Below, in pieces: positions 12,087 through 64,000 of a stretch of 64,000 bases of DNA (position 1 is the stretch's first letter; every line of letters begins with the position of its first letter). Both the position numbers and the translations under genes were made by a program. The notes beneath the pieces are model-generated. The model was given only the letters and a program-made list of their open reading frames with translations, was not told the DNA's origin and did no database searches. Origin of the DNA: an uncultured Lentisphaerota bacterium (GTDB lineage: Bacteria; Verrucomicrobiota; Kiritimatiellia; CAIQIC01); NCBI GenBank assembly GCA_903896925.1, contig CAITZM010000033.1:1-64000 (forward strand), written 5' to 3'.

Positions 12087-12242
12087 ATGCAGGAACAGGA
12101 ACTGCCGTCGGTCTCCAGTGGCAGCCCATCTTGCCCCGCGTTTCGCCGTGTTCTGTTCCAGTTGAAGCCCTTGGATGGGGCACCGGCGCCCGCATCCCCC
12201 GGCAGGGCGCGCGCCGGGTCTCCCGCCATGCGCTTCGGGCCT

Positions 12243-12272
12243 TCATCGCACAGTTGTACAACTGTGCGATGA
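12243..12272. terminator. 30-bp perfect palindrome between convergent genes
   Basis: The sequence is self-complementary over 30 bp with no spacer; the arm is TCATCGCACAGTTGT. It lies in the 247-bp gap between the lipoprotein gene and the convergent rhamnosidase gene. In RNA either strand would form a long hairpin, so it could end transcription in both directions, although neither side has a U-tract. Nothing else in this gap looks like a gene. Confidence 0.5.
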
Positions 12273-12333
12273 GGGCGGAACAACTGGCTGGTGCCGAACG
12301 CTGGGGATAGCAGCGTGCTCAAGCCCGGCGCCC

Positions 12334-25464: not shown

Positions 25465-27543
25465 TCAATGCTTTTCCTGGGCTTGGAAGCCGGCAGCGCT
25501 GTTTTTCCAAGCCTTGGAAGTTTGCCCTGCCGGCTGTTCATGGCGCGGCTTTTTGACGGCGCGGAAGTCCCAGGCGCGGACGGGCCTGGCGGCATTCGCC
25601 GGCAGATATTGGATGGACTCGATTTCGACGGGCGCTTTGTCGGCCGGCAGGTAGAGGCGGACGATGCGCGGCTCGCCATGGATCGGCAGAGCGATCGTCA
25701 CGTCCTGCCAGCCGGCGCCGGCGGGCAGCGTGTAGTTGACCAGCTGGCCGGTCTTCGGGAAATCCGCCTGCTCCTTGGTGCTCCACTGCACTTTGCCCTC
25801 GCCGCCGGACGTGCTGCGGGCGCGCAGCTGCAGCGTGAGCGGGCCGGCGTGTTTGACCTGCGCGGTGCCGAGGAACGGCGTGCGGCCATCGGCTTCGACG
25901 TGCAGGGCGCCCTCCACCAGCGTCGCTTTGCAGAATTTCGGCACCAGTCCCGCCAGCGGATCGGCCGGCGCTTGGGCCGCGCTCTCCTTGGCGGCGGCAC
26001 GCGGCTTGTAGGCGGGATTCGCCCGGGGATAGAGCGCACCGGTATCCTTGACGAACGCATCGATCAGCGCGTCGAGCTCCTGCACCTTGTCCGGCCTCTG
26101 TGCGGCGAGATTTTTTGTTTCGCCAAGATCTTCCCGGATGTTGAACAGCTCGCGCGTGCCATCGTATCGGTCCGGCCGCTCGGCGAAACGGCGGATCAGC
26201 TTCCAGTCGCCCTGGCGCACGCTCACGCCGGGGACGAGGTGCGGGAACCAGATGAAGTAGGCGTCGCGCGCCAGCGGGCCGGTGCCGCGCAGGACGGGTG
26301 CGTAGGAGACGCCGTCCAGCTTCTGCTCCGGGTGCGGCGTGAGGCCAACAAGATCGAGCACGGTGGGATAGACATCAATGCAGCCGACGACCGCGTCGCT
26401 CGTCGCACCCGCCGCAATCTTGCCGGGCCAGCGGACCAGCAGCGGCACGCGCGTGCCGCCCTCGTAGAGGCTGCCCTTGCCGTCGCGCAAAGGCCAGTTG
26501 CTGGTCGGCGGCTTGTGGTCCGCCCACTTGCGGTAGCTGGCCACCGCGGGATTGGTCGTGTCGTCGCGCTTCGGCTTACGGCCTTCCTCGTCCTCGGTCA
26601 TGCTGTGCGTGTTGCCGCCGTTGTCCGACATGAAGAGGATGATCGTGTTGTCAGCCAGCTTGAGTTCGTCGAGCCTGGCGAGAATCCGCCCGAGGCTTTC
26701 GTCCACGCTCTTGAGCATCGAGGCCATGACAGCATTGCCCTGGTGGCCGGTCGGGTCGGTGCGCTTCGCCAGTTCCGCGGTGAGGCTTTCCTTGTGGCCC
26801 CACGGACCGTGGACGCCAAAGTGCCAGAGGTTGAGGAAGAACGGCCGGTCCTTGCTTTCGCCGATGAATTTCAACGCCTCGTCGGTCAGGCGGTCCGTGA
26901 TGTACTCGCCGGGCTGGCCATCGGTGATGGTGCCCGTCAGAAATTTCTGCCCCGCCTTGCCCTTGGGCCGCTCCGTGCCCGGCGGAACAACGCCGTAGGG
27001 CGAGAAATAGAAGTTCGGCGGTCCGGCGCTCGGCTCGCAGTGAAACGCGACGTCGAAGCCCTGCCGCTCCGGCCAGTGGGGCTGCGTCGCGCCGAGGTGC
27101 CACTTGCCGAAATGCCCCGTGCGATAGCCCGCGTCGCGCAGCGCCTTCGCGAGCGTGTGCTGGGACGGCTCCATGAAATTCTTGCTTTCCGGCATCAGCA
27201 GCGGCGCGTTGGGCGGCGCGGTTTCCGGCAGGAACTGGTGGCCCGGCGGCTGCGGCGGCTGGTGCCCGCTCGCGCTGGTGATGCCGTGCCGCGCCGAGTA
27301 TTGCCCGGTGAGCAGCGAGCAGCGTGTCGGCGAGCACAGCGGCTGCGAGTAGGCCTGCGTGAAGCGCATGCCCTGCGTGGCCAGGCGGTCCATCTCCGGC
27401 GTCACGTAATACTTCGAGCCGTTCGCTCCGCAATCCATCCAGCCCATGTCGTCGACGAGGAAGAGGATGACGTTCGGCTTGGGCGTCGCGGCGCCCGCCG
27501 CGGCGGCGAGCAGGCTGCACACCAAAAGGGCATAACGTTTCAT
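25465..27543 (-). CDS. Type I sulfatase with C-terminal beta-domain
   Basis: A 692-residue secreted sulfatase with signal peptide MKRYALLVCSLLAAAAGAA and AGGAG before the ATG. It has VDD at about 30-32, formylglycine motif CSPTR at Cys70 (QPLCSPTRCSLL), KWHLGAT and FMSDNGG. It is about 200 residues longer than the other sulfatases here. The extra C-terminal part (residues about 500-670, with GPLTLQLRARSTSGGEGKVQWST and IVRLYLPADKAPVEIESIQY) looks like a beta-sandwich that may bind carbohydrate. The last ~20 residues, after VRAWDFR, look like read-through into former intergenic DNA, because they contain the palindrome found upstream of other genes. Confidence 0.9.
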   Translation of the reverse strand: MKRYALLVCSLLAAAAGAATPKPNVILFLVDDMGWMDCGANGSKYYVTPEMDRLATQGMRFTQAYSQPLCSPTRCSLLTGQYSARHGITSASGHQPPQPPGHQFLPETAPPNAPLLMPESKNFMEPSQHTLAKALRDAGYRTGHFGKWHLGATQPHWPERQGFDVAFHCEPSAGPPNFYFSPYGVVPPGTERPKGKAGQKFLTGTITDGQPGEYITDRLTDEALKFIGESKDRPFFLNLWHFGVHGPWGHKESLTAELAKRTDPTGHQGNAVMASMLKSVDESLGRILARLDELKLADNTIILFMSDNGGNTHSMTEDEEGRKPKRDDTTNPAVASYRKWADHKPPTSNWPLRDGKGSLYEGGTRVPLLVRWPGKIAAGATSDAVVGCIDVYPTVLDLVGLTPHPEQKLDGVSYAPVLRGTGPLARDAYFIWFPHLVPGVSVRQGDWKLIRRFAERPDRYDGTRELFNIREDLGETKNLAAQRPDKVQELDALIDAFVKDTGALYPRANPAYKPRAAAKESAAQAPADPLAGLVPKFCKATLVEGALHVEADGRTPFLGTAQVKHAGPLTLQLRARSTSGGEGKVQWSTKEQADFPKTGQLVNYTLPAGAGWQDVTIALPIHGEPRIVRLYLPADKAPVEIESIQYLPANAARPVRAWDFRAVKKPRHEQPAGQTSKAWKNSAAGFQAQEKH
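25474..25519 (-). promoter_or_regulatory. Candidate operator pair (TTCCAAGCCTTGGAA)
   Basis: The perfect palindrome TTCCAAGCCTTGGAA lies at 25505-25519. A weaker version, TTCCTGGGCTTGGAA, lies at 25474-25488, 31 bp away or about three helical turns. Both precede the sulfatase gene 24050-25432. The first belongs to the shared pattern TTCCAANNCTTGGAA also seen at 38264 and 39745. Confidence 0.5.
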
Positions 27544-27603: not shown

Positions 27604-29433
27604 TCACGGCGGGAGCAAGGTTGCGGCTTCGATGGTGAGGGGCTGGCCGTTTTCGCGGGTGCCGGAAAAAGCCAGGCCGTCGAACGGACAAGGCAGCGGC
27701 GGAGCGGTGACGCTCCTGGTCGTCAGCTTGAAGGCGCTCCAGGGAAGATCAAACAGGGCGCTGGCAGCGGCATAGGCGATCTCGGCGGTGTAGGCGCGCT
27801 CGTCGAGGCTGTTCGTGTCGCGCAGCAGCGTGATTTTCAGGACGCCCGCAGCGCCATGGCCATGGATGCGGAGCTGCAAGCCTTTATGCTGTGCGGCCAC
27901 GCCGCTGGCGAGGATGGCGCTGTTGCTGACGAGGGCGAATTCCTTGCCGCCCTTGTCGGGGCCAAGTTTGAGCCCGGTCGGCGGCGCAAATTCGAACACG
28001 GTTTTCGGCAGCCAGCCGGCGGGGGTGCGCCATGCCGCCGCGCCGCGCTCGGTGTCCCACAACTGGCCACCGCGCCACGACGGGCCGGCCGCGGTCATCG
28101 GGTCGAGCCCGTCGCGCACGAGCAGCGTGCTGGACACGACGAGGCCGCGCTCGTCTCCGATGTTGACGAAGGCCTGCGCGGCGCACTTCCCGAACTCCGC
28201 CGGCACCTGCGCGCTCCACGTGTCGCCCTCACGCGTGGCGGGGCATTCCATCCAGTAGCGGGCGGGACTGACCGCCTTGCCGGGGCTCCAGTTGAGCACG
28301 GCGCGCGTGAGCGCGCGCGGCCCGGTCGCCTGCCAGGTATAGCGCAAGCCATCGTCGCTGACCTGCAAGGCGCTCACCTGGGGCAGAGCGGGTTCGCCGA
28401 GCAACACGTGACGCATGAAGGCGGGGGCGGCCGTGTCCGGCACCTCGGGGCCGCCCGCACCATGGTTGGAGTTCGGCCGCAACACCCAGCCTTTCTCACC
28501 GGGCAACGCCGCAAGGTTTTGCGCCGCGCCGTTGAGCCAGAAAAACAGATCGTTCGCGGCGAGCTGGAAGAACACCGCCGCCTTCGTGCGCGGCGCATGC
28601 GCGAGCGGTTCGTAGTTGGCGAGCCAGAGCGCGCGCTGCTCAGCCGGCTCCCAGCGCAGTTGTTGCGCAGCCCGGCCGGAGGTGAGCCCGGCGCCACCCG
28701 CGCTGACGCCCGTGGTCACGCACTTCACGCGTTCGTCCACGCCGGCGAGCAGCAGCGCAACCCAGCCGCCGTAGCTGATGCCGACCGCGCCGATCCGGTT
28801 TTTGTCGGCCCAAGGCTGCGTCTCGAGGAAGTCGATCATCCGCCGCGCGGCGGTGACGTTGTGCCACATCGGCCAGTTTTGCAGGTTGGGGACGAGGTCG
28901 AACGTCCGGTCATGCGGGACGTTTTTCCACTGCGTGACCTTGCCTTTGGGCCCGGGCATGAACTGCCCGTTATAGTCGATCGCCACGCCCGCCATGCCCG
29001 GGTGCCGGCGCGCCGCCGCCAGCGCGAGCGCACCGCTGGCGTGCCCGCCGCCGCCGTGGAAGATGAGCACGACCGGCACCGGCCCGGCGGCTTTCTCCGG
29101 CCGCGCGACGGCGCAGAATATCCGGTTCGGCCCGGCCGGCGAATTCTCTGAGCTGATGAACAATTCCTCGACGAGCAGTTGCTCATCACCCGACGCTGGC
29201 TTGGCGGCGGCAGGCGCAGGCGCGCCCTTCTTGCCGGCCACCCAGCCATCGCCGGTGTTCATCCAGTCGGCCGCTCCGGCAACTACCAGCGGCGCCTTGC
29301 GCGGCGCGCCGACCTGCTCTACATCCAACGGCTGCTTCCGCACCTCGGTCATGTCCCAAAGATCAACTGGGGCCGGCGCGGCCGGGGTGGCCAGGAGCAG
29401 CATGGCTCCGAAGAACCACAGCCTGCTCTTCAC
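27604..29433 (-). CDS. Secreted alpha/beta-hydrolase esterase
   Basis: A protein of about 609 residues. I choose the GTG at 29433, which overlaps the upstream TGA (GTGA) and gives the signal peptide KSRLWFFGAMLLLATPAAPAP; the track start at 29649 lies inside the upstream gene. The esterase core has FHGGGGHASG (oxyanion region), GISYGGW with the nucleophile Ser, and downstream Asp and His candidates (AANDLFF, NSNHGAGG). It resembles acetylxylan-esterase/dienelactone-hydrolase-type proteins. A C-terminal beta-domain follows, with WSPGKAVSPARYWMECPA. It probably removes acyl groups from the polysaccharide. Confidence 0.75.
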   Translation of the reverse strand: MKSRLWFFGAMLLLATPAAPAPVDLWDMTEVRKQPLDVEQVGAPRKAPLVVAGAADWMNTGDGWVAGKKGAPAPAAAKPASGDEQLLVEELFISSENSPAGPNRIFCAVARPEKAAGPVPVVLIFHGGGGHASGALALAAARRHPGMAGVAIDYNGQFMPGPKGKVTQWKNVPHDRTFDLVPNLQNWPMWHNVTAARRMIDFLETQPWADKNRIGAVGISYGGWVALLLAGVDERVKCVTTGVSAGGAGLTSGRAAQQLRWEPAEQRALWLANYEPLAHAPRTKAAVFFQLAANDLFFWLNGAAQNLAALPGEKGWVLRPNSNHGAGGPEVPDTAAPAFMRHVLLGEPALPQVSALQVSDDGLRYTWQATGPRALTRAVLNWSPGKAVSPARYWMECPATREGDTWSAQVPAEFGKCAAQAFVNIGDERGLVVSSTLLVRDGLDPMTAAGPSWRGGQLWDTERGAAAWRTPAGWLPKTVFEFAPPTGLKLGPDKGGKEFALVSNSAILASGVAAQHKGLQLRIHGHGAAGVLKITLLRDTNSLDERAYTAEIAYAAASALFDLPWSAFKLTTRSVTAPPLPCPFDGLAFSGTRENGQPLTIEAATLLPP

Positions 29434-32408
29434 GGGTACCCTGCTTTCTGCAACGTCACCGGGCCGAGCAGGCCGGAGGGGACGAGGGGCGTATCCTTCC
29501 GGTAATGGCGACATGAGGTGAAGGTCAAACGGCCCGAGGTGCGCGGCGTGCCGTTCAGGAACCACGCGGGCCAGGCGAGCAGCGTCTCGAAATCCTTCCA
29601 GTCGCCGTCGAGCGGCAGTTGTTCGTCGCCGATCAGGCGGTTGATCCATAGGTTGACGACGGAAATCTCCAGCTCGTTTTTCCCGGCGCGCACGGCACCG
29701 GAGATGTCCACGCGATAGGGCGGCTTCCAGGCGATGCCGCAGTCCTGGCCGTTGACCCGCACCCGCGCCATCACCTCCACGGAGCCGAGGTCCAGGAAGA
29801 GATGGTTGATGGCGGATGGTTGATGGCGGATGGGGGATACGCTGCTTGTTTCCCCCTTAACCGCCAACCATGAACCGTCAGCCATAAAGGTCTTGCGATA
29901 GACCGCGGTGCCCGAATAATACTTGATGCCATCTTCCGCATGCTTGCTCCAATCGGTCAGCTCGTTGAACGTCACGGGCTGTGCCGGTCCTCCCCACTTG
30001 GGATCGAACGTGACCTGCCACGGGCCGGCGATGACGCCTCGCGCGATCTGCGGAAGGAAGTTTTTCTGCGCAGCATCTCGCGGAGCGAGATGACTACTCT
30101 GACGGAAGACGACGAACCAGCTCTGCAGCGGATCGAAGCGGAGCGGGATGCTGATGCGTCCGTCCTGCTCGGAGAACTCCGGCAGCGTGCGGATGGCGCC
30201 GGTCTCCGGGTCCCACAGTTCAGGGCGTTTGCCGGCGATGCGGAAGGTGCAGGTGGCCCGGCACGCGTTGGTGGTCTGGTTGGCGACGAAGTAGATGTCG
30301 GCTTCGCCGGAACGGCGGTGGATGTAGGGCAACCCGGCGCCCTCGAAATCCGGCGCGAGCTGGTCCCGCGCGAACACCTGCGCCGGCGTCTTACCGGTCA
30401 CAATGCGGTTGGCGTCCCAGAGCGACACGGCGAGCTTTTCGATCCCGGCATCGCAGCGCGGAAAATCCGACAGACCGGGCGCACCCTTGGGCCGCGGGCC
30501 GCCGATGACGCGCGCGCCGGCATCCACCAGCTCGCGGATCTTTTGCGCGAACGGCAGCGTCATGCGGTCGGTGTCCGGCAACACCAGATAGCGATAGCTC
30601 GCGCCCGAGGGCAGCACGAGCCGGCCATCTTTCACGGCCATTGTGAGCAGCAGTTCCGCCGAGACGTGGTCATAGTCATAGCCCGCCGGCAAGTCCAGGT
30701 GCATGTCGTCCACATTCAGCGGCGCGCCTTCGCCGGGGCAGTAGCAGACATCGGCGACAAAGCCGCCCTGCTGGAGCAGATACTGGCAGCGCGTGAGATA
30801 ATCCATCCACGGCTGCATGTAGGGGGACCAGGTGTTGTTCCGCTGGATGTGCTCGCCCCACTTCCGGTGTGTCAGGCCGGGGACCATGTTGGCGTAGGCC
30901 TGGTGCGCGGAGAGGTGGAAGACCATCCGGTTGAGCCCCTCGCAATATTTCTTGTCGCCCTGCGCCTTGAGCGTGAACGGATGGTCGCGCCAGCCGCGGT
31001 CGGAGGTGAACGACTCCGCGCCGATCACCGGCCTGCCATAGGTGTGCGCGGCGGAGGCCATCACCTTGGTGGAAAGTTCGTAGCCGTGCCCGGTCTGCAC
31101 ATTGGGGAACAACCCGGTGCCGCGCGACCAGAACTCGCTGATCGGGAAATCGCAGGCACCGGCGTAGGCGAGGTTGTCGATGCACAGGTGGCCGTAGGCC
31201 TCGGTGGAGAACTTGATGCCGAACGGCCGCGCCAGCTCGCGCAAACGGACCGAATAATTGTCATGGATCATCTCGCTGACGGTCTTCCGCATGTCCCACA
31301 GGAAGCGTTCCGAGAGTTCCGCGCTGCCCACCATGCGGCCCGCGAGCACCGGGAGCCACGGGCGCAGGTTGTAGCCGCGCCGCGTGCGGAATTCCACAGG
31401 GAACGTCGCCGTCCAGTTCTGGCCGCCGGCCTCCCAGCTGTCCACGTGGACATGCGACAGCGCCGGGCCGGCCAGCGGGCCGGCGTCGGTGAAGATCTTT
31501 TTCAGGAAGCCATTGAAGTGCGTCTCGATGCCGGCCTGGCCGAGGCGGTCGCATTCGAGCCCGATGGCCGCGGTCGGGCACGGCCTGGTCATCTTGAAGT
31601 TGGAGGCGTGTCCGCAGCGCAGGACCAGCCAGTTGCCCGGCGGCGCGTCCCACGTCAGGCGGCCGTCCGGGCCCATGCGGTCGGTCAAATCAAGCACACG
31701 CGCGAGGGGTGTCACGGCGTCCGGCGGCAGCGCGGGCGCTTTGTTTCCGCGCGGCAACAGCCAGCTGGTGCCATCCTTGAGGTTGAGTTCCGGGATGCGA
31801 TAGTCGCGCCCCTGCGCCGACGCCGGCGCCGGAAGCGCGAGCACGGCGACGTCGCGGTAGGAATCCATCTTCTCAATATCAGCTAGCACCTTCGCGGTGA
31901 TGCCCGCGCCGGGCCGCAGCCATGCCGAGAGATTCTTTTTCGTGACCTCGGGCTTCGGCAGCACCAGCTCCAGCTGCTTTCCGCCCGTGATGTCCGTCTC
32001 GCTCCAGTACAGTTTCTGCATCGAGCGGTCCGGCGTGATGTGCGGGCCGCCGCTGCCGTAGCCGAAATCCAGCGAAAGGTCGAACTCCAGGCCGAGGCGG
32101 CCGCACTCGTGGAACGCCCACTGCATGCAGTCGTGCCACTGCGGGCTGCCGCCCGCCACCTTGCCGTCCGGCGCCCACCACGGCCCGCTGACCTCCATCC
32201 AGATCACGCCGCCGATGCCGGCGCGCTGCAGTGCCTCGAGGTCCGCGGTGATGCCTTCCTTGCTGATGTTGCCGTTGATCCAGAACCAGAACACCCACGG
32301 CTTCGCCGCGTGCGGCGGCTGCGCGAACCCGCGCTCCAACTCGTAAGCGGTTGCGATACGCACCAGCGAACACAGCGCGAGCAACATCATCAACATGCGT
32401 TTTTTCAT
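29430..32408 (-). CDS. GH106-like alpha-L-rhamnosidase
   Basis: A 992-residue secreted enzyme starting at the ATG at 32408 (signal MKKRMLMMLLALCSLVRIATA). The GH106 pattern is clear: PWVFWFWINGNISKEGI at the N-terminus with a TIM-barrel (GIGGVIWMEVSGPWW, HVDSWEAGGQNWT, KFSTEAYGHLCID) and a C-terminal galactose-binding-like domain (RVNGQDCGIAWKPPYRVDI, RLIGDEQLP, SGLLGPV). The track start 21 codons earlier lacks a signal. In the C-terminal domain a 28-residue segment between YRKTF and LFLDLG is encoded by an inverted-repeat DNA element. The GTGA overlap couples it to the esterase gene. Confidence 0.85.
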   Translation of the reverse strand: MKKRMLMMLLALCSLVRIATAYELERGFAQPPHAAKPWVFWFWINGNISKEGITADLEALQRAGIGGVIWMEVSGPWWAPDGKVAGGSPQWHDCMQWAFHECGRLGLEFDLSLDFGYGSGGPHITPDRSMQKLYWSETDITGGKQLELVLPKPEVTKKNLSAWLRPGAGITAKVLADIEKMDSYRDVAVLALPAPASAQGRDYRIPELNLKDGTSWLLPRGNKAPALPPDAVTPLARVLDLTDRMGPDGRLTWDAPPGNWLVLRCGHASNFKMTRPCPTAAIGLECDRLGQAGIETHFNGFLKKIFTDAGPLAGPALSHVHVDSWEAGGQNWTATFPVEFRTRRGYNLRPWLPVLAGRMVGSAELSERFLWDMRKTVSEMIHDNYSVRLRELARPFGIKFSTEAYGHLCIDNLAYAGACDFPISEFWSRGTGLFPNVQTGHGYELSTKVMASAAHTYGRPVIGAESFTSDRGWRDHPFTLKAQGDKKYCEGLNRMVFHLSAHQAYANMVPGLTHRKWGEHIQRNNTWSPYMQPWMDYLTRCQYLLQQGGFVADVCYCPGEGAPLNVDDMHLDLPAGYDYDHVSAELLLTMAVKDGRLVLPSGASYRYLVLPDTDRMTLPFAQKIRELVDAGARVIGGPRPKGAPGLSDFPRCDAGIEKLAVSLWDANRIVTGKTPAQVFARDQLAPDFEGAGLPYIHRRSGEADIYFVANQTTNACRATCTFRIAGKRPELWDPETGAIRTLPEFSEQDGRISIPLRFDPLQSWFVVFRQSSHLAPRDAAQKNFLPQIARGVIAGPWQVTFDPKWGGPAQPVTFNELTDWSKHAEDGIKYYSGTAVYRKTFMADGSWLAVKGETSSVSPIRHQPSAINHLFLDLGSVEVMARVRVNGQDCGIAWKPPYRVDISGAVRAGKNELEISVVNLWINRLIGDEQLPLDGDWKDFETLLAWPAWFLNGTPRTSGRLTFTSCRHYRKDTPLVPSGLLGPVTLQKAGYP
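29802..29885 (-). repeat. In-frame inverted-repeat insertion inside the GH106 gene
   Basis: An 84-bp element, exactly 28 codons, made of two imperfect inverted arms of about 34 bp: ATGGTTGATGGCGGATGG at one end and CCATGAACCGTCAGCCAT at the other. The loop is about 14 nt. It encodes the part of the protein ending IRHQPSAINH and interrupts the usual YRKTF-to-FLDLG junction. A single-arm version sits at the same place in the paralog at 63670-63699. Confidence 0.8.
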
Positions 32409-32600: not shown

Positions 32601-34052
32601 TCAAGGGTCGTCGCCCTTGCGTTGTTTTGTTTTTCCACCCTCCGGAGGCGGGACAAACGAGCGGCCGCTGGCGAGGATCTGCTCCCAGCGTGCGCGGCAG
32701 TCGCGCTCCATGCGCGCGGCGAGGTCGGGGAATTTCGCCTGCACATCGGCGGTCTCGCCGGGGTCGACGTCGAGATCGAAGAGCGCGTGCTGGCCGCCGG
32801 GGAGCGCGTGGAATTTGAAGCGCGGGCCGCGGAGCGTCAGGTGATGATCCTCGTACTTGCGCTGGTGCACGTCGGCGATGTTGTCGCGCGGCGAGCCGGG
32901 GCCGGAGATGGCCATGCGGAACACCTCGGGCCGATCGCAGATCATCGCCGCGTTCTCGAGCGAGGCGCGCAGGCTGACGCCGCTGAACGGCAGGTGCGCG
33001 GGCAAGATCCCGGACTTCGTGAAGTCCGGGATCTTGTTGCTCTCGCCCAGGCCTGCCAGATCGAGCAGTGTCGGGAGGATGTCTTCCGCGCAGCCGAACT
33101 GCCGGCGGTCGCCGGGCGCGATGCGGCCGGGCCAGCGCACGAGCAGCGGTACGCGGTCGCCGTTTTCCCAGACGAGCGCCTTGTGCCCGCGCAACTTCGC
33201 GACGTTGCGCTTTTGCCAGTCGGTGTCCTTCGCCAGCGCTTCCTCATCCTTGAGCTTCTTCACTTCCGGGCTGGTCGGTCCGTTGTCGCTGATGAAGACG
33301 ACGATCGTGCGCTGGTCCTGCCCGGCCGCCTTCAGGCCGTCGAGCAAGCGCCCGATGCACTCATCGAGGTGTGCGATGCTGCCGTAGCACGCCGCGAGAT
33401 TCGAGGAGCAGCCCTGGGCCGCGAACGGCGCGCTGTATTTTTCGGCACAGACCCAGGGCATGTGCGGGATGATGTAGGCGAGCGAGACGAACCACGGCTG
33501 GTCGCCGTGCCCGCGGATGAACTGCAGCGTGTAGTCCGTCCAGATATCTGCGGTCCAGCCCTGGCCGCGCGCGCTGTTGCGCGGCTTCCACAGCATCGGG
33601 TCGCGATGCTCGTAGCCGCCGCCGCCCAGGTAATCCTCCCAGCCGAAGTCGGTGGGATTGCCCTTGCCCATCTTCGCGCAGTCGAGCTTGCCCACGTGGA
33701 GCGTCCGGTAGCCGGCGGCCTTGAAGAAGGCGGGCATCCGCGTCTCGTCGGGCCGCAGGTTGGCGCGCATCGGCACGCCCCAGACGCCGGTCAGCAGGTG
33801 GTCGCGCCCGGTGAAGACCGCCGCGCGCGTCGGCGAGCAGGCGGCGGCGACGGTGAAGTTGCGGTAGACCGCCGACTCGCCCGCGAGCCGGTCGAGCTGC
33901 GGCGTGCGCACCAGCTTGTTCCCGTTGAACCCGAAATCGCCGAAGCCCTGGTCGTCGCTGATGATCAGCAGGACGTTAGGCGGTGCGGCCTGGATCTTCA
34001 ACCCCAGGCAGCAGACCGCCAGCAGCAGCGACCGTAAGATGTTTTTCTTCAT
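32601..34052 (-). CDS. Type I sulfatase with in-frame palindrome
   Basis: A 483-residue secreted sulfatase from the ATG at 34052, preceded by GAAAGG. The signal peptide is MKKNILRSLLLAVCCLGLKIQA. Metal-binding SDD lies near 32-34 and formylglycine motif CSPTR at Cys72 (AACSPTRAAVF). FISDNGP and RVPLLVRWPG follow. Around residues 339-350 the sequence NKIPDFTKSGILP is encoded by a 34-bp palindrome, where relatives usually have a short loop. The reading frame stays open. A 446-bp non-coding gap lies upstream. Confidence 0.92.
   Translation of the reverse strand: MKKNILRSLLLAVCCLGLKIQAAPPNVLLIISDDQGFGDFGFNGNKLVRTPQLDRLAGESAVYRNFTVAAACSPTRAAVFTGRDHLLTGVWGVPMRANLRPDETRMPAFFKAAGYRTLHVGKLDCAKMGKGNPTDFGWEDYLGGGGYEHRDPMLWKPRNSARGQGWTADIWTDYTLQFIRGHGDQPWFVSLAYIIPHMPWVCAEKYSAPFAAQGCSSNLAACYGSIAHLDECIGRLLDGLKAAGQDQRTIVVFISDNGPTSPEVKKLKDEEALAKDTDWQKRNVAKLRGHKALVWENGDRVPLLVRWPGRIAPGDRRQFGCAEDILPTLLDLAGLGESNKIPDFTKSGILPAHLPFSGVSLRASLENAAMICDRPEVFRMAISGPGSPRDNIADVHQRKYEDHHLTLRGPRFKFHALPGGQHALFDLDVDPGETADVQAKFPDLAARMERDCRARWEQILASGRSFVPPPEGGKTKQRKGDDP
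33003..33036 (-). repeat. 34-bp palindrome inside the sulfatase coding sequence
   Basis: Perfect 16-bp arms (CAAGATCCCGGACTTC and its complement) flank a 2-nt centre. In the reading frame it encodes KIPDFTKSGIL. Palindromes of this length are rarely found in coding DNA by chance, so this is probably an inserted REP-like element that kept the frame. Confidence 0.75.
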
Positions 34053-34498
34053 ATCAACCCTTTCAATACTAACGGCCAAGGTGAGGGGATATTTTCCGGG
34101 CGTTGAACTTGTGCCAAGGATGGGGAACGGAGTGCTGACGAAAAGCTGGGCGTATGCTCCACGGGTGTTAACCGAAAAGAACGAGGTGCTCCGCACGGAC
34201 ACCAGCTGGGAGCGGCGGTCCCGCCGCGGCGGGATCGCTGCAGATGAGCCGTCGGGCGTGTGTGTTGCACACGTGTCTGCGGTCACGGCAAGGCGGTTTA
34301 CACTATGCGGGGCGGTGAGGACACCGCCCCTCCCAGCCAGGCAGACAACCTCGAGGGCAAAATCTCCTCGTTTGGCTGATGAGCATATGGTGGGCACAAA
34401 GGCTGGTGTTCGCTTCATGCAGTATCAAGCCGCCCCATCCTTGGCGCAATATACACACCTTGGTCTCGCTCTGGTGCCTGCCGGCGGAGTCATCCGGT
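34053..34498. other. Intergenic region with hairpins and a dispersed repeat
   Basis: I see no gene here. The region has a 9-bp-stem hairpin GGGGCGGTG / CACCGCCCC (34309-34330), a 16-bp palindrome TCCCGCCGCGGCGGGA (34219-34234), and two phrases shared with 62827-62910: GGAGTGCTGACGA near 34129 and TCCTCGTTTGGC near 34366. It probably contains the promoter of the sulfatase gene at 34052, which I could not define. Confidence 0.5.
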
Positions 34499-49776: not shown

Positions 49777-52700
49777 TCAGCCCTGCGCGGTGCAGCGGCG
49801 GCGGATGCGCCGCACGAGCCACGCGACGCCCACCAGGCCGAGCAGCGAGGCCGTGCCCGGCTCCGGCACCGCCGTCAACGTGATCTTATGCCCGTTGGCG
49901 AGGTTGTCACCGTAGTTGATCGTGAACAGATTGGTCGAACCGCTCTGGCCGACGACGGGCAGCATCATGCCCTGCGCCCACAGCACGCCGTTGCTCGGCC
50001 CGCCCACATCCATCAGCGTCAGCCACTGGGCCGCGTTCAGCGGGTCGAAGTCGGAAGCGCCTGTCCAATCCACGAGGGTGTAGGACGCGCCGGCGACCAG
50101 GCTGTAGGCCCGCAGGTCCAGCTTCAGCAGGCCGCCGGAGATGGTCAGGCTGTTGGTGACGATGCTCCGGTCGTTGACCTGGGCGCCGTTGCCCAGTTCC
50201 ATCTCCAGGATGCCGGCGTTGGCCAGCGTCAGGCTGGCGACATATTGCGTGGCGATGCTGTTGCCCGGCGCGTAGACGCCGCCGCTGCCGACCACCAGCG
50301 TGCTGAGCGGGCCGTTGCCGCCCACCAGGCCGTTGCTGATGACGGTGATGACGCCGCCGTTATGCAGGCCGTTCACGAAGTAGTTCGCGTTGCTGACGAG
50401 CGTGCCGCCACCGAAGTTGTTCGTGCCGGTCAGCCTCAGCGTGCCGCCGCCGGTCAAGGTGAAGGTGCTGGCGCCCGTCAAGACACCGCCGAAGACGTTG
50501 GTGGCGTTGACCAGCTGGAGGGTCAGGCCGCCGCCGCCGTTGGTCACCATGCTCCCGCTGGCGCCGGTGAGGCCGGCGATGGCCAGGCTGTTCCCGTCCA
50601 AATCCAGGACCCCCAGACTGTCCACATAGACCCGCGTGCTGCTGGAGAGCGTGGCCCCGCTGGCGAGCTTCAGGGTGCCGTTGCTGATGGTCGTGGTGCC
50701 GCTGTAGCTGTTCGCGCCGGAGAGCGTCAGGGTGCCAACGCCGGACTTGACCAGGTTGCCGCCGTTGGTGATGGCGCCGGTGAGCGCGAGGTTGCCGGCG
50801 GACGTATCGAAGTTGCCGGAGGTGGCCAGGTTGACGGTGTTGGTCAGCTGCCACGAGCCACCGTAGGTGCCGAGCGAGCCGCCGGCCATCGTCACCAGGC
50901 CGCTGCCCAACGGATTGTCCTGGCCCATCCGGAGCAGGCCGTTGCTGATCGTGGTGCCGCCGACGTAGCTATTGTTGGCATAGGCTGCGGCGAGGGTCTG
51001 CGTACCGCTGCCGCCCATGACCAACGCCAGGTTGTTATCGTTGACACCGACACTGCCCAGCGAGCCATCAAAGAAACTATCGCCCGTCGTATGGAGGGTC
51101 AGGATGGAGAGCGTGGCCGCACCGCCGATGACCCTGTTCGTATTGAGGCCACCGCCCCCGTTGGTGCTGACCAAGCCAGCCAGCGTCTGATTATAACCAT
51201 CGAGCATCAAGGTGGCGGTATTGGTCCGGGCCGCGACGCTTTGCGCCTGCAAATTCAGCACCGTCGTCGTCGGCAGCGCGTCGTTGATGCCCAGCTGAAC
51301 CGTGAGGCCATTAAAGTTGACGTTGCTCACAGCCAGATACGTGTTGCCATTATAGGACGATTGGCCCTTCAGGATGTACAGCGCGCCGCCATTGTTGGCC
51401 GCACTGGCGCGCAACGTCAGGTCGCCTGTGCCGCCAATCCCTTGATCCATGGTGACCAAGGCCTTGCCGGCGTTATAGGTGTTGATGGCCGCACCGCCAG
51501 CCAACGTGATGGGCCCTTGCAGTTCGAAGACACCCGTGTTCTCGTTCAGCAGCAGCGCGCCGTAGGCGGCGGGAGCGGTGCCGATACCGCTGCCCGAGAG
51601 CGTGAGGGGCACCGCATTGGTCGTGTGGGACGCGAACTGCAAGCGTGCGCCATTGGAAACCACGGCGCCCACGCTCGCCGGGCTTAGCGCATCCTGCCGG
51701 TCCAGGCGCAACACACCTTCGCCCACCAGCGTCCACCCCGTATAGGAGTTCGAGGCGTTAAGGGCCAAGACGCTGTTGCCGGTCTTGGTCAGCCCGCCGC
51801 CGCCGGAGAGCACTCCGCTATTGGTGGAAGCGGTGTTGTTGCCGCCCACCGTCAGAGTGATGGCATTGCCGCTGAGATTGGTCAGGCCGATGTTCTGCGT
51901 GCCGGCCAGGCCGCCGAGGGTGAAGGCCGTGGTGCCGCCGATGAAGCTGACCGTACCCGCCGCGTTCGTATAGTTCAGCGTGCTGTTGGTCAGGGCCAGC
52001 GTGCTGCCGATGACCAGCGTGCCGGCGTTGGGGATGGTGTCGCCGGAATAGGCGTTGGTGCCGGCTATCGTCAGCGTGCCGGCGGTGCTCTTGACCAGCG
52101 CCGCGCCGCCGTTGAACTGGCCCAGGTTCATCAGCGTGCCGGACTGCAGGTTCAAGACACCGAGCGGAGCGGCGGCGCTGCCGATGCTCGCGCCGGTCAT
52201 GTCCAGCGTGCCCCCGTTGAGGTTGATGGTGCTGGTGCAGTTGCTGGGACCGACCGTGATGGGGGCGTAGGATCTAAAGACGCCGCCGGAGAGGGTCAGC
52301 GTGCCATTGGCGGAGCCGGTGCCGGTTTGGGAGGCGAGCGAGAAGCTGCCGCCGGGATTCACGGTGAACTCGCCGCCGCCGACCATCAGCGTGGCCGTGG
52401 CCGTGGTGGTGTTCGCACCGCTCTTGGCCGCCATGACGATGCTCGTCACGGTGAAGACGCCGTTGTCGAAATAGAGATTGCCGAACGCGCTGCCGGCGCC
52501 GCCGCCGGTCTCGATGCCGTTGGTCAGGGCGCCGGCGGTGACGTACGCCGGATGGCCCAGCAGGTTGAGCGTGCCCGTGATGGTCGCACCGGTGCCGGTA
52601 CCCGTCTTGCTGCCGATGGTGATCTCGGTGGTCGCCCCGCTCTTGCCGCCAATGGTCACGGTGCCGGCGCTGCCGTTGGTCTGTGAGGCAAATTTGACCA

Positions 52701-55700
52701 CCCCGTTGGCCTTGGACAGGCCGATGGTGAGCTTATCCACGGCCAAGGTGTTGACACCTGCGCCCAGGATGAGGGTGCCGCCGGTGGCGCCTGCGTTCGA
52801 GCCAAGCGAGTGCCCAACTTGCAGCGCCGTGGCGGTGATGAGGTTGTTGGTGTCGGACAGGGTCAACTGGCCTGAACTCTTCTGGCCATAGCCGACACGC
52901 ACTTCGTTGAGCGGGACGGCGCTGCTGCCAAGGATCACGCTGCCCAGTCCGGAGAGGTCCAGTATGCCGCTGCTGGAACTGGTGTCCACGGCTTGGGCCC
53001 TGCCGATGACCACATACGCGGCTGTATTGGTGACCACCAAAGAACCCGCACCGCTCACGACCAATCTATTCGTGGTGGAAGTGGTGCCTCCAAAATCAAC
53101 ACCATTGGTGAGGCCGCCCGCCCCGTTGATCGTCAACGTCTGGCCGGCGCCGATGTTGATCATGTTCGTGGCGAACGCGCCGGTGGACTGCACCAGCAGT
53201 TGGCCTATGGTCTGGCTGTAGGAGGGGAGATCCAGATGGCCCGCGCCGGTGCCTTCGCCCAAGGACACTCCGCCCGTGGTCGGCAAAGCATCCGTGATAC
53301 CTACCCGCAAGGTATTCCCATTGTTGACCAAGGTGCCACCGCCGAAACTGCTGGCCGCCGTCAGCACCACGGTACCGCCGTTGCCGCCGCCGACGACCAG
53401 ATTGGAGGAACCGCCTATCGCCGCCGGATAGGTCAACACGCCGCCGCCACCGCCCAGGCGATAGGTCGTGCCATTGAAGGCCCACGCGCCGCTGTAGGTC
53501 CCGGTGCTGCCGGCCGCCATGCCGAGGAACAGGCTGTTGAAGCCACCCGTAGCAAAGTCAATCGTCTCGGAGTTGTCGCCGACCATGGCCAGGGCGCCCG
53601 CCGAGGCGGTGTCGAGCCTGCCGGAGCCCAGCCAGTTCACCACCGAGCCATAAGCGCCGGTGGCCACCAGCGCGCCGGCGCTGTTGATGAGCACGTTGCC
53701 GGTGGGCGGCAGGGCACTGGCGCCGAAGGCCAGCAAGCCGCCGTTGACGAACGTCCCCCCGCTGTAGCTGTTGGCGCCGGTGAGCTGCAGCACGCCGGTG
53801 CCGACCTTGGTCAGGCTGCCCCCTTGCGACAGCACGCCACCATAGACCAGATCCACGTTGTTATTGCCCAGGGAGAGCGCCACGTTCACGCCACCCGCGT
53901 TGGTCAGCGCCACATTGCCCGTGCCCGCCAACCCGCCCACGGTGTAGGCGTTGGTGGTGGCGGAGAAGCCGAGGCCGTCAGATGCAGCAGCATTGGTGAT
54001 CGTGACGAGCTGCGCCGCCGTGGAGCTCAGCAACAACAATTGCCCGCCGTTGATGGTGGTGGGGCTGACGAAGGCCGTGGTGTTGGTGAGCGCCAGCACG
54101 CCGCCGTTGATGGTCGTGGGCCCCGTATACTTGATCGTGGTGCCGCTCAAGGTTTGCGTGTAGGTCCCGTTCATGAGCAGCGCAATATTCCCGTCGATTC
54201 TGCCGGAATAGACGTGGTTCGTCGGGTTGGGATTGCCCAAGGTCAACACCACCTGGGTGGCATTCACGGTATTGGTGATCGTGCGGGTGAAGGACGAATC
54301 CCTCAGGCCTGCGAGCGTTTGGCTGAAGCCGTTGAAGTCGAAGAGGCCGGTGGCGGAACCGGCCACCTGCAACACAGCGTTCGTGGCCAGGCCGTTGTTC
54401 GCCCCCAGTTTGACCGTGTCCTGCGAGATGCTGAAATCGGCATACGAGCCGCCGCCGCTAAACACCACGGTACCGATCCGGCTCACCACCCCCACCGAAC
54501 TGGTGACGGCACCGGCGATGACCAGGGTTCCCCCGGCACCCGTGCTGCCAAAATGGCCGCCGGCGGCCGCGATGTTACTGATGGTAATCGGGCCACTGAA
54601 CGCGCCGGTACTCGCACCCGCGTATTCAAGCAGGCCGCGTCCCGAGGCGCCGCTATTGTTATACAGCGCGATGGCGTTGGTGATGGTGACCCCATCGCCT
54701 ACCGTCACGCGCACCGCGGTGCTGGTCATGACCAAGGTGCCTGAGCCCAGCGCAGCGTTGTTGTTCAAGGTCAATTGACCGGCGCTGATGAAGGTGCCGC
54801 CGCTGTAGGTGTTGCTGCCGCCGAGCGTCGTGGTGCCCGTGCCGGTCTTGGTCACGGTGCCCGTGCCCGCCAGGTTGGCCGTGGCGGTGCCGCCGGAGAA
54901 GGCGTAGGACGCACCCACCAGCGTGCCGTTGGAAATGACGCCACCGCTCAGGGTGACGACCCCATTGGTCACATTGGGGAACGTGTTCAGATCGTAGCCG
55001 CCGCCGCGCACGGTCACCGCGGCGGTGGCCGGCAACGCATTGAAGAGGCCCAACTGCAACACGCCGTTGCTGATGGTGGTGGTGCCGCTGAAGCTGTTCA
55101 CGGCGTTCAGCACGAGCACGCCGCCGCCGCTCTTGGTCAGGCCTCCGATGTTGGAGTCATCCAGGACGCTGGCGAAGGTTACGGGCAGGTTGGTGGTGTC
55201 GATGGCGATGGCGCCGGTGCTGTTCTTGATCCGCGCAGAAAGGTCCAGGGTAATGCCCGACCCGTACCGCAGGGTGCCGCCGCCAAAGGTGATATCGCCG
55301 CTGGTGCCCAGTGCCGCATCGTTGTTGAACGTCAGCACGCCGCCATTCAGCCGCGTCCCCCCGTTATAGGAGTTCACGCCGGAGAGCACCAGCGTACCGG
55401 TGCCGGTCTTGGTCAGGCTGCCGGCCCCACCGATGCTGTCGGCGACCAGCAGGGTGCCACCCGCGCCCACGCTCAGCCCGCCATTGAAGGTGCCCCAGTT
55501 GATGGCATAGCCAACCAGGTTGGTAATCAAGCTGCCGGTCACTTGCAACGTACCGCCATTGACATGGAGGTTGCCCGCCGCCGGCAGGTTGACGTAGTCA
55601 CCGATGGATAGCATCCCTCCCTCGAGTGCCATGCCACCGGTAAAGGTGTTCGTGCCGGACAGCGTCGTGACGCCACCGCTGTTGGTCAAGGCCCCGGAGC

Positions 55701-58700
55701 CGGCCAGGTTCGCATAGGCGGTGCCGCCGGAGAACGTATAGGACGAGCCGACCAGGGTGCCATTGGAGATGCCACCGGAGCTCATCGTGATCGCGCCATT
55801 GGTCACATTCGGGAAACCGTTGAGGTCATAGATGCCGCCGGCCATACTCACGGCGCCATTAGCAGGCAGCGCATTGAAGAGGCCCAACTGCAGCCTGCCG
55901 CCCGTGAGCAGCGTGGTCCCGCTGAACGTGTTGACGCCATTGAGCACCTGCAAGCCGGTGCCTGATTTGACCAGCGACCCGGCGCCTGAAAGGCTGCCGG
56001 AAAAAGCCCCCGACTGATTGCCGCCACCGAGCGTCAGCGTGACCGCGGCGCCGGCGTCGTTCGTCAAGGCGATGTCGCCCGTGCCGCTCAGGCCGCCGAT
56101 GGTGAAGGCGTTGGTCGCGAGGAAGCCCACGCCTTGGGCGACGAGGTTGGTGATGTCGCGGTCGCCGCCCATGGCATTGGCGGTGGCGAGCAACAGACGG
56201 CCACCGTTGATGGTCACCATGCTGTTGAAGCCCGACGTATTGGTCAAGATCAAGGTGCCGCCATTGACGGTGGTGGGCAGGCTGTAGGTGATCTGGCTGC
56301 CGCTGAGCGTCAGCACGCCGCTGCCGGACTTGGTCAGGGCCAATCTGTTGGAGGGACCGGTCTTGTTGCTGTCCCGCAAATAACCGGCATAGACGAAGTC
56401 GGCCGTGTTGTTCACCACCAACAGGCTGGGGCCTGAATTAGTATCCGTGACGGCGGCATCATTAACCTCGATGACGCCATTGGTGCCCGGGTCGGAGATG
56501 CCGGCGACGGTATTGGTGTGGCCCAGCAGCAGGAGCCGGCCATAGGATCCGGCGAAGGTGAGGATGGCGCTGGAAGCGATCTGGTCGCTGGCTTCCATCC
56601 GCACCAGGACATTGGCGCCGGCGGCGGCGGCATTGCCGATCTGGAAGTTGCCCGGCACCGTCAGACCGCCGGTCGTGTTGCTCAACGTGAGGGTGCCGTT
56701 GGCGGCGATGGTCATGCCGGGATAGGTGTTGTTGCCGGTGAGCGTCAGGTTGTTGGTGCCCAGTTTGACCAGACCCCGCGTGGCTTGCGGCGTGGCATAG
56801 AGGAAGTCACCGGCCGTCGTGTCGATGCCCACGAGCGCGTCGGCGTTCATGGCAACACCGGCCATCCCGTTGGCCCACAGGGTGTCTACGTTGGCGGATG
56901 TGAAGAACCCGCCGGCGGAGCCTACGCCCAGCGCCAGGGCTGCATTGGAAAGGACATTGATGGTGCCTGCCGGAGGCTGGGCCGACGTGTTGGCCAGGCT
57001 CAAGGCGCCGTTGCTGACGATGGTGCCGCCGCTGTAGGTATTCGCGCCGGAGAGGGTCAGCACGCCCGCGCCCTGCTTGATCAGGATGCCGTTCTGGCCC
57101 ACACCCACGGCGTCCTGGAGCTTCTGGACGATGAGGATGTCCTTGCCGTAGCCCACATTCAAGGTGCCGCCGTTGGTGGTCAGGAAGGCATAGGTCAGGT
57201 TGCTCATGTAGTTCAAACTGGTGGCATAGGGGCTGAGCGTGCCGCCATCCATGGTGAGTTCCGTATAAGTGCCCGAGGAGCCGCGTGTCGTCGGGAAGGA
57301 GGGCAACGTCACGAGGCTGCCCTTGCCAAAATAGAGCACGCCCGTGTTGTTGGGACTGCCCGCCAGGGCGCTGAACGCGGAGGCGCTGAAGACACCATTG
57401 CTGACGGCAAAATAGCCGTAGGTATTGGTGGTTAGCGAGCCGCCACCGACGTACAACGTGGTCACCGTGGCCGTGCCGCCGGATTGGTGATAATAGGCCG
57501 TGACGTTGGTTGCGAAATTACCGCTGCGCCCAAGCAGCAGAGAAGTGGCCCACATCTGGCCATTGGTCATCTCGAAGAGGCCGTGGGTATTGTGGTTCAC
57601 GCCCACATACAGATTGGGGCCGGCGTTCAAGGTGCCGCCATAGAGGTGATATTCGCCATAGGAACCGACGGTAGAGCCGTCTTGGATGGCCGTGCCGAAC
57701 GACACCGCGCCGGCGGTCTGCACGACGATGCCCGTCGCGGCGGCCAGGTTGCCCACCATGAAGTTTGCGCCGCTGACCGATCCGCCCTGGATATTGACCG
57801 TGGCGGTACTGTTCGCCAGTTTGCCTAGATAGATGTTGTTGGCGCCAGCCGAGACGTTCCCCGACACGTTCAGCGTACCCTCGCTCACAAGGGGGGCGCC
57901 GCCGAGGTTCGCATCGCCGGTCAGCGTCAACGTGCCCCCGCCGGCCTTCGTCCAGGCCCCCGCGCCGCTGATGTTGTTGGTAATGGTCAGCGTGGTGCCG
58001 GCATCCACCACATTGGTGCCCGCGCCGGCCAGCGTGACCGTGCGATTGCTCAGCGTCATGTCGCCGCTGGTTTGCAACGCGCCGCCGTTGAAGGTCAGGC
58101 TGTTGCCTGTGCCCAGCGCGGTGTCGTTGGTCACGTTCAGTATGCCGCCGTTGATCGTCACGCCGCCGCCAAAGGAGTTCGCGCCGGACAGGACCAGCGT
58201 ATTCGGGCCGAGCTTGGTCACGCCGGCCCCGGCGAGCGTGATGGCCGTGGCCCACTCGCCGCTGCCATTGCTGGTGTCGAAGCCGAGCGCGGAACCGGCA
58301 GCAAAGGCGCCGCTATTGCCCAGCAGGTTATTGATCTGCGTGGTGTTCCAGTCGCTGCCGCCGCCGTAATTGATCGCCAATGTCGCGCCGTTGGACACCG
58401 CCAGCCTGCCCGCCGTGGCGTAGCCGGGCAGCGCATTCGTGGTCGTGGCCAGCAGGGAGCCCGCCTGGATCACCGTGCCGCCGGTGTAGGTGTTCGCGCC
58501 GGAGAGCGTCAGCATACCTGCGCCCTGCTTGGTCAAACTGCCGCTGCCGTTGGCGCCGATGGAGACCGTCGGCACCGTCGGATTGGTGCTGCCGCCGCCC
58601 ATCAAGGTGACCACGGGCGCCAGGGTGTAACCAACGCCGGGGCTGGTGATGATCAGGTTGGTCACCTGCCCATAGGTCAGGCTGCCCAGCGTCAGGTCGG

Positions 58701-63286: not shown

Positions 63287-64000
63287 TCAGGGCCGGGCCG
63301 GGACTTGCACCGCGGTCCGCAGCAGCACGGGGCCGAGGAGGCCGGAAGGCAGCAGCTCGTCGGCCTTGGTCCAGTGATGCCAGGTGGTGAAGGTGAAGCG
63401 GCCGGTCGGGCTGGGCTTGCCGTCGAGCACCCACTGCGGCCACGCCTTGAGCTGGATGCCGTTCCATTCGCGGTCCTCGGGCAGCTGCTCGTCGCCGATC
63501 AGGCGGTTCGGCCAGAGGTTCGTGATCTGTACCACGAGTTCGTTCTTCCCGTCGCGCAGGGCGTCGGTGACCTCGACGCGGAACGGCGGCTTCCAGAGGA
63601 TGCCGAGGTCCCGGCCGTTGAGCCTGACCTCCGCGAGGTTTTTCACGAGGCCAAGATCGAGGAAGACACGGTTGATGGCGGATGGTTGATGGGGGATGGA
63701 GAACGTCTTCCTGTACGTGGCGGTGCCGGAGAAATACTTCACGCCCTGATCGGCGTGGTCGGTCCACGAGATGAGCTTGTCGAGTTTGACGGCGGCGGGT
63801 GCGCCCCAGTTGGGCGGGAATGCGAGGTCCCAGGCGCCGGCGATTTCGACGGGCGCGGGCACGGCGGTCGTCGCGGCCTTGAGCGTCTGGCCGGCGGCGG
63901 TCTTGAGCTCGAGGTTGACGGGCTGCCACGCGTAGACGGCGGGCCGGCCATCGGCGGCGACCGCGAGGTCGAAGGTCACCGGCGGCGTGGGCCGGTCGCT
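63287..64000 (-). CDS. GH106-like alpha-L-rhamnosidase, C-terminal part (cut by window edge)
   Basis: The reading frame is open from the stop at 63287 to the window edge, so this is the 3' end of a longer gene; the GTG/ATG starts in the track are internal. The product matches the C-terminal domain of GH106 gene 29430-32408: GVKYFSGTATYRKTF, VFLDLG, VRLNGRDLGILWKPPFRVEV, NLWPNRLIGDEQLPEDREWNG, and SGLLGPVLLRTA. The domain is galactose-binding-like. IPHQPSAIN between YRKTF and VFLDLG is encoded by the repeat shared with that gene. The catalytic part lies outside the window. Confidence 0.8.
   Translation of the reverse strand, partial: SDRPTPPVTFDLAVAADGRPAVYAWQPVNLELKTAAGQTLKAATTAVPAPVEIAGAWDLAFPPNWGAPAAVKLDKLISWTDHADQGVKYFSGTATYRKTFSIPHQPSAINRVFLDLGLVKNLAEVRLNGRDLGILWKPPFRVEVTDALRDGKNELVVQITNLWPNRLIGDEQLPEDREWNGIQLKAWPQWVLDGKPSPTGRFTFTTWHHWTKADELLPSGLLGPVLLRTAVQVPARP
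63670..63699 (-). repeat. Shared in-frame repeat arm in the second GH106-like gene
   Basis: GGTTGATGGCGGATGG, then TTGATGG and GGATGG, is nearly identical to the arm at 29804-29833 and sits at the equivalent codons of a paralogous gene. Confidence 0.75.

Follow-up and report, generated by a model that had tools for sequence, protein, structure and literature searches.

This locus raises the question of why a long and perfect palindrome should lie in frame within the coding sequence of a sulfatase. It was examined in a window (the whole stretch of 64,000 nucleotides that was analysed), which lies within a 112-kb contig of a 7.22-Mb genome in 191 contigs (the own genome, G000). A preliminary description of the window had reported a 34-bp palindrome with 16-bp perfect arms, in frame inside a sulfatase gene, and both its coordinates and its complementarity were verified. 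The two features concerned are as follows.

32601..34052, minus strand: S1-type sulfatase of 483 aa (Pfam PF00884 Sulfatase, E 1.3e-53)
33003..33036, no strand assigned: family A palindrome CAAGATCCCGGACTTC-GT-GAAGTCCGGGATCTTG, an in-frame insertion at sulfatase codons 339-350, missing in the orthologues of the congeneric genomes G002 and G003

The palindrome within the sulfatase gene

The left arm (33003-33018, CAAGATCCCGGACTTC) and the right arm (33021-33036, GAAGTCCGGGATCTTG) are each 16 nt long and 100% complementary around the 2-nt spacer GT. The longest perfect arm in order-1 resamples of the window (n = 100) was 12 nt versus the 16 nt observed, and 0 of the synonymous recodings of the sulfatase gene (n = 1000) contained a 16-nt arm; the arm length is far above the chance expectation. 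The listed open reading frame (32601-34418) starts upstream of the likely sulfatase start, where the signal peptide is MKKNILRSLLLAVCCLG, and the codon numbering of the palindrome follows from taking 32601-34052 as the likely gene. The palindrome is kept in frame on the minus strand, and the peptide around it reads GESN-KIPDFTKSGIL-PAH. The solved structures related to this sulfatase are bacterial aryl- and carrageenan sulfatases.

The closest orthologues were found in the two congeneric genomes (G003, 87% identical; G002, 85% identical), and in the alignment both are 11 codons shorter precisely at the palindrome. The loop at this site reads LAGV-KPGLVPHQPF in G003, LAGI-KPGIVTHQPF in G002 and LAGL-GESNKIPDFTKSGILPAHLPF in the window, a net insertion of 33 bp or approximately 11 residues. 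The earlier proposal of a palindromic element inserted in frame into a tolerant loop, with residues of about 339-350 as an extra loop absent from close sulfatases, agrees with this alignment, and neither G002 nor G003 encodes the same residues by other, non-palindromic codons. Because the same loop differs in length among more distant orthologues, it was regarded as a tolerant place; the enzyme presumably tolerates the approximately 11 added residues, and the insertion would be neutral for the sulfatase. The sulfatase palindrome is one copy of a palindromic element that is dispersed in the genome, and its insertion is recent. No target-site duplication was recognisable at the insertion, the exact boundaries of which are blurred at 15-20% divergence, and no parent transposon with terminal inverted repeats, as a MITE would have, was seen among the loci examined.

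The preliminary description had also drawn a parallel with a palindromic insertion in the GH106 gene (29430-32387), which was not upheld: a long palindrome of the 33003-33036 kind is not present there, and the sequence in that gene is a different repeat, GGTTGATGGCGGATGG, which was probably the element that had been meant. This repeat (GGTTGATGGCGGATGG / CCATCCGCCATCAACC) lies at 29801-29835 inside the gene, encodes the peptide SPIRHQPSAINH, and has another copy at 63670-63690. It was also noted that a single ORF of 3861 aa (49777-61362, minus strand) adjoins the polysaccharide-degradation cluster.

Dispersed copies of the palindrome

With up to 3 mismatches, ATCCCGGACTTnnnnAAGTCCGGGAT was found at 11 places in the own genome, 9 in G002, and 7 in G003, bearing out the expectation of further copies in the genome; G001, a small congener, and two further genomes of this family had 0. 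Its reversed control pattern gave 0 matches. The family A relatives in the own genome (about 11) are nearly all intergenic. Among 346 genomes of the class, the shorter pattern CCGGACTTnnnnAAGTCCGG occurred only as singletons or pairs outside the three genomes with dispersed family A. The sequence surveyed amounted to 976 kb, made up of the window and sampled stretches. Each palindrome family has approximately 10-30 copies per genome, which is below classical REP numbers. A product of chance or of assembly in this metagenome-assembled genome, which its division into 191 contigs might suggest, has a negligible probability: there are dozens of copies over several independent assemblies, and the explanation was rejected on the reversed-pattern controls, which were zero, together with the shuffles and recodings, which never reached the observed arm length.

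The family A core is strictly conserved, and the four central bases vary by copy (TTAA, GCGC, CGTG) and are mostly self-complementary. Two central positions per side are still symmetric, with pairing of 0.78 and 0.96, without sequence conservation, and the symmetry of the arms outlasts the conserved core to approximately 17 bp from the centre before reaching chance level. This pattern bears on whether selection has favoured the palindromes as RNA hairpins, serving as 3' stabilisers or terminators, the sulfatase copy being an accidental hairpin duplication. The sulfatase copy has a strong predicted fold in the mRNA (-33.4 kcal/mol, z -5.6), and several copies lie 11-57 bp past a stop codon. However, a hairpin loop needs no symmetry at its central positions, and regulator-specific families of palindromes, described below, would be left unexplained. 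The T-run of a terminator is absent after the copies inspected, on which ground the terminator reading was rejected, and we regard selection as RNA hairpins as very improbable.

Other palindromes were recorded as well. A further dispersed palindrome, TTTTCCAAGGCTTGGAAAA, occurs in many intergenic regions (e.g., window 25505-25519, L071, L074, L025), often as 2-4 repeats upstream of genes and frequently adjoining family A palindromes. The 976 kb contain 22 sites of TTCCAAGnnTTGGAA, and the genes on either side are mostly co-directional or divergent.

Tandem winged-helix regulator genes and their palindromes

Three family A copies spaced 334-348 bp apart recur in each of G000, G002, and G003, and this triplet surrounds and enters one gene, which encodes 217-221 aa with two ArsR-like winged-helix domains. 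Counted from the ATG, the palindrome centres fall at -30/-31, at +317 (in frame, within the linker), and, at the 3' end, at approximately +651. The NCBIfam ArsR/SmtB model HTH_metalloreg scored above its cut-off in two stretches of the protein, and Pfam HTH_5 was likewise matched above the curated cut-off. The AlphaFold model of the own-genome protein is confident (pLDDT 88.9, pTM 0.84) and contains two winged-helix domains, and its weak stretch at approximately residues 91-115 is the inter-domain linker containing the palindrome-encoded residues. The nearest PDB folds (CzrA, SqrR, and SmtB) each cover one domain. As modelled, the regulator is a fused winged-helix pseudo-dimer for which palindrome recognition would be natural, and binding may be predicted from this arrangement.

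The full-length family A regulator was found in exactly the three genomes with dispersed family A among the 346 genomes of the class. An alignment scan of public genomes matched two lake MAGs and no others: uncultured Lentisphaerae bacterium LaPlata-15m-a_bin-260 and Loclat_bin-07389, which are identical in the scanned genes to G002 and G003. A separate scan of public genomes with the window sulfatase gave no match, and no relative was found in the viral contigs searched. The search for relatives of the regulator raised the number of tandem winged-helix genes in G000, G002, and G003 to 15, forming 12 families (A to L), and most of these genes have a private palindrome at matching places, usually in two or three copies. 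Their locations are given below, together with a family D palindrome in the window.

G000:C180: family A regulator of the own genome
G000:C184: family D regulator, palindrome ATCGCACAGTTGTACAACTGTGCGAT
G000:C177: family H regulator, palindrome GAATTCCACACCTTGCAAGGTGTGGAATTC
G000:C5: family I regulator, palindrome ATCTCACACTTGTACAAGTGTGAGAT
G002: regulators of families B, E, F, G, J, K, and L
G003: regulator of family C
Window 12239..12276, no strand assigned: family D palindrome GCCTTCATCGCACAGTTGTACAACTGTGCGATGAGGGC, between convergent genes, of the same superfamily as the 33003-33036 palindrome

The cognate regulator of the window's family D palindrome is G000:C184:108477-109106 (L113), and the palindrome is missing at the orthologous G002 locus. 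Across the families, the cognate palindrome is centred approximately 30-50 bp before the regulator ATG, with no clear upstream copy in families G and H. Families C, I, K, and L lack the linker copy, which, wherever present, is always read in the same frame. The identity of the 28-bp palindromes was 0.88 within a locus versus 0.61 between loci, and related cores, such as ACTT-nnnn-AAGT, were noted among families A to L. Protein and palindrome distances were correlated (Mantel r 0.59-0.66, p 1e-4, the lower value being that for a single member of each family), as is partly expected from physical linkage alone. A family E-like regulator at L185 (G003:C189:43020) ends after the first domain (129 aa) with its palindromes kept, and is possibly decaying.

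We consider it likely that, in this group of lake bacteria, each dispersed palindrome family is the recognition site of a dedicated tandem winged-helix regulator; the sulfatase copy, an inserted element, would probably be a cognate binding site of the regulator. Under such a scheme, the regulator with its two fused ArsR-like winged-helix domains would bind its own palindrome, and the copy just upstream of its start codon would be suitably placed for autorepression. The regulator gene also bears the palindrome, usually in the inter-domain linker, in frame, and usually at the 3' end, and paralogous regulators would have diverged jointly with their palindromes into the separate families A to L. 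Copies would spread and vanish fast across the genome, mainly in intergenic regions and mostly where harmless, and one landed in frame in the length-tolerant sulfatase loop, which gained approximately 11 residues. The protein binding, the autorepression, and the copying mechanism are inferred. The regulator has no nuclease or transposase domain and therefore cannot itself explain the copying.

Copying could be attributed to a Y1 (TnpA-REP/RAYT) transposase elsewhere in the genome that moves a REP-like element, with the winged-helix gene as a passenger or insertion host. The palindromes are indeed short, dispersed, and mainly intergenic, and there are six Y1_Tnp matches in the genome. However, palindrome copies are absent near these matches in the loci examined, the REP tags are not enriched (GTAG at 1/70 versus 3.8 by chance; CGTC at 11/70 versus 13.9), and the private palindrome of each winged-helix paralogue is left unexplained. 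Movement by a Y1 transposase is considered improbable, and a canonical REP was rejected on the tag and Y1-partner tests, so that the REP/BIME-like element of the preliminary description is not a canonical one.

Distribution, turnover, and comparison with known systems

Beyond these genomes, a single strong regulator match was obtained in the phylum sample; it came from G046, which belongs to another family of the class and carries a remote tandem winged-helix gene with two upstream palindromes (TCACACTTCC-type, TCACACTT..AAGTGTGA). With 1 mismatch, TCACACTTnnnnAAGTGTGA gave 27 matches in G046 and 31 in G007, from another family of the order, and its reversed controls gave 0 matches in both. 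In G007, two loci were chosen from the spacing of palindromes as likely regulator genes, and a tandem winged-helix protein is encoded at each (2/2; profile E 9e-31, 2e-28), each gene with one palindrome just upstream and one past its 3' end; the linker copy is missing in the regulators of G007 and G046. Judged from these arrangements, the linkage between palindromes and tandem winged-helix genes is present in three bacterial families. Half of the sampled G046 copies (7/14, a small sample with home-made gene calls) lie in divergent promoter regions, a lean more in keeping with operators than with neutral mobile units.

Sixteen loci were compared with their orthologous positions in the sister species; of 27 comparisons, 17 were alignable on both sides and 0 keep the same palindrome. 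The intergenic copies showed 0 cases of conservation at orthologous loci despite flanks that are 73-93% identical. By these alignments, the palindromes outside regulator genes are lineage-specific, and because copies turn over between species, they behave like mobile units or like ones that are quickly acquired and lost. A GH13-like glycosidase of the own genome (L124 4828-4857, G000:C5) contains a family H palindrome with the peptide NSTPREVWNS, its G002 counterpart (L214 1412-1445) contains a palindrome of another family at homologous codons with the peptide MPTLSKVWAS, and in G003 the loop is of nearly equal length without a palindrome. This case looks like an old insertion whose family has since changed or decayed.

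Placement was assessed for a sample of 33 non-regulator copies with a home-made gene caller. Thirty-one were intergenic, their neighbours being co-directional genes in 22 cases, convergent genes in 7, and divergent genes in 2, in near agreement with the shares of intergenic bases in the sample (112 kb, 37 kb, and 26 kb, respectively). Coding sequence makes up 78% of the sample, yet only 2/33 copies were in genes; the general process suggested earlier, which would add loops to secreted enzymes, is not supported.

Alternatively, the palindromes may serve as the operators of a conventional regulon, with selection driving their gain and loss and with the sulfatase and linker copies as intragenic operators acting by looping or roadblock (cf. 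lac O2). In lac-type auxiliary operators, an intragenic regulator site lies hundreds of bp from the promoter site, and by analogy the candidate regulator site here is within coding sequence; unlike those operators, it is a discrete in-frame inserted unit and lineage-specific. A regulon would agree with the cognate palindrome ahead of the regulator ATG, with the divergent bias in G046, and with the several intergenic regions in which two families are represented (A+G at G000:C110, twice; A+H at G003:C13). However, the intergenic copies are not conserved between species, the number between convergent genes is as chance would give, and the genes adjoining copies, as read from sequence, have no common theme. 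A simple conserved operator was rejected since copies are not conserved and placement is neutral, and we regard a conventional regulon as unlikely. The lineage specificity of the copies and their neutral placement point to a mobile element, and the site before the regulator start codon and the G046 bias point to operators. Tentatively, and with less than even confidence, we would suggest a probably class-wide REPtron-like system without a transposase, in which a tandem winged-helix protein is paired with a private, self-carried, and spreading palindrome, specificity and element co-diverge, and in-frame insertion occurs occasionally.

REP elements and REPtrons are 20-50 nt palindromes, mostly intergenic, with a partner gene flanked by copies (PMC8266576, PMC2817692). 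Of the known systems, they come nearest in organisation. The window-type palindromes are likewise short, multi-copy, and mainly intergenic. Unlike REPs, they show no enrichment of a GTAG/CGTC tag beside the stem, and their partner is a tandem winged-helix protein and not HuH/Y1, the Y1 loci examined being without such palindromes; unlike in REPtrons, the palindrome is often inside the partner's own coding sequence, and there are several parallel partner-palindrome pairs per genome. The Rickettsia palindromic elements are in-frame insertions in protein genes with several families per genome, are approximately 150 bp long with nearly half within ORFs, and have no partner gene described there (PMC10969869). 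They set the precedent for in-frame palindromic insertion into ORFs, which was also found here (sulfatase, GH13-like glycosidase), but the units are approximately 30-34 bp, few lie in genes, a cognate regulator is present, and no encoded peptide is conserved (KIPDFTKSGI in the sulfatase versus YPELAQVRDD in the regulator linker, in different frames). The regulators resemble ArsR/SmtB autorepressors in the winged-helix fold and in having a palindromic site shortly before their own gene, and differ in having two domains in one chain, additional linker and 3'-end sites, and 10-30 dispersed sites that are not conserved between species.

In bacteria, dispersed palindromes have been described chiefly as REPs whose partner is a Y1 transposase, and here the partner is of another kind, a tandem ArsR-like protein; among the papers searched, none describes dispersed palindromes associated with tandem winged-helix genes. 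The palindrome is self-carried in several copies, and in many regulators one copy also encodes the inter-domain linker. With a dozen parallel pairs, the three related genomes offer a ready set for studying joint change in protein and site specificity, the spread of short palindromes where no transposase is evident, and the gain of peptide loops by enzymes.

Two further arrangements were noted. In G015, of the same order, two copies of CCGGACTTTATAAAGTCCGG occur at C28 and C68 (L093, L099), where a regulator was not detected. At L260 (G007:C1:33000-41700), where a winged-helix gene was likewise not detected, four TCACACTTTGCAAAGTGTGA-type palindromes lie within 6 kb and have the matching flanks catgaTCACAC...GTGTGAtcatg.
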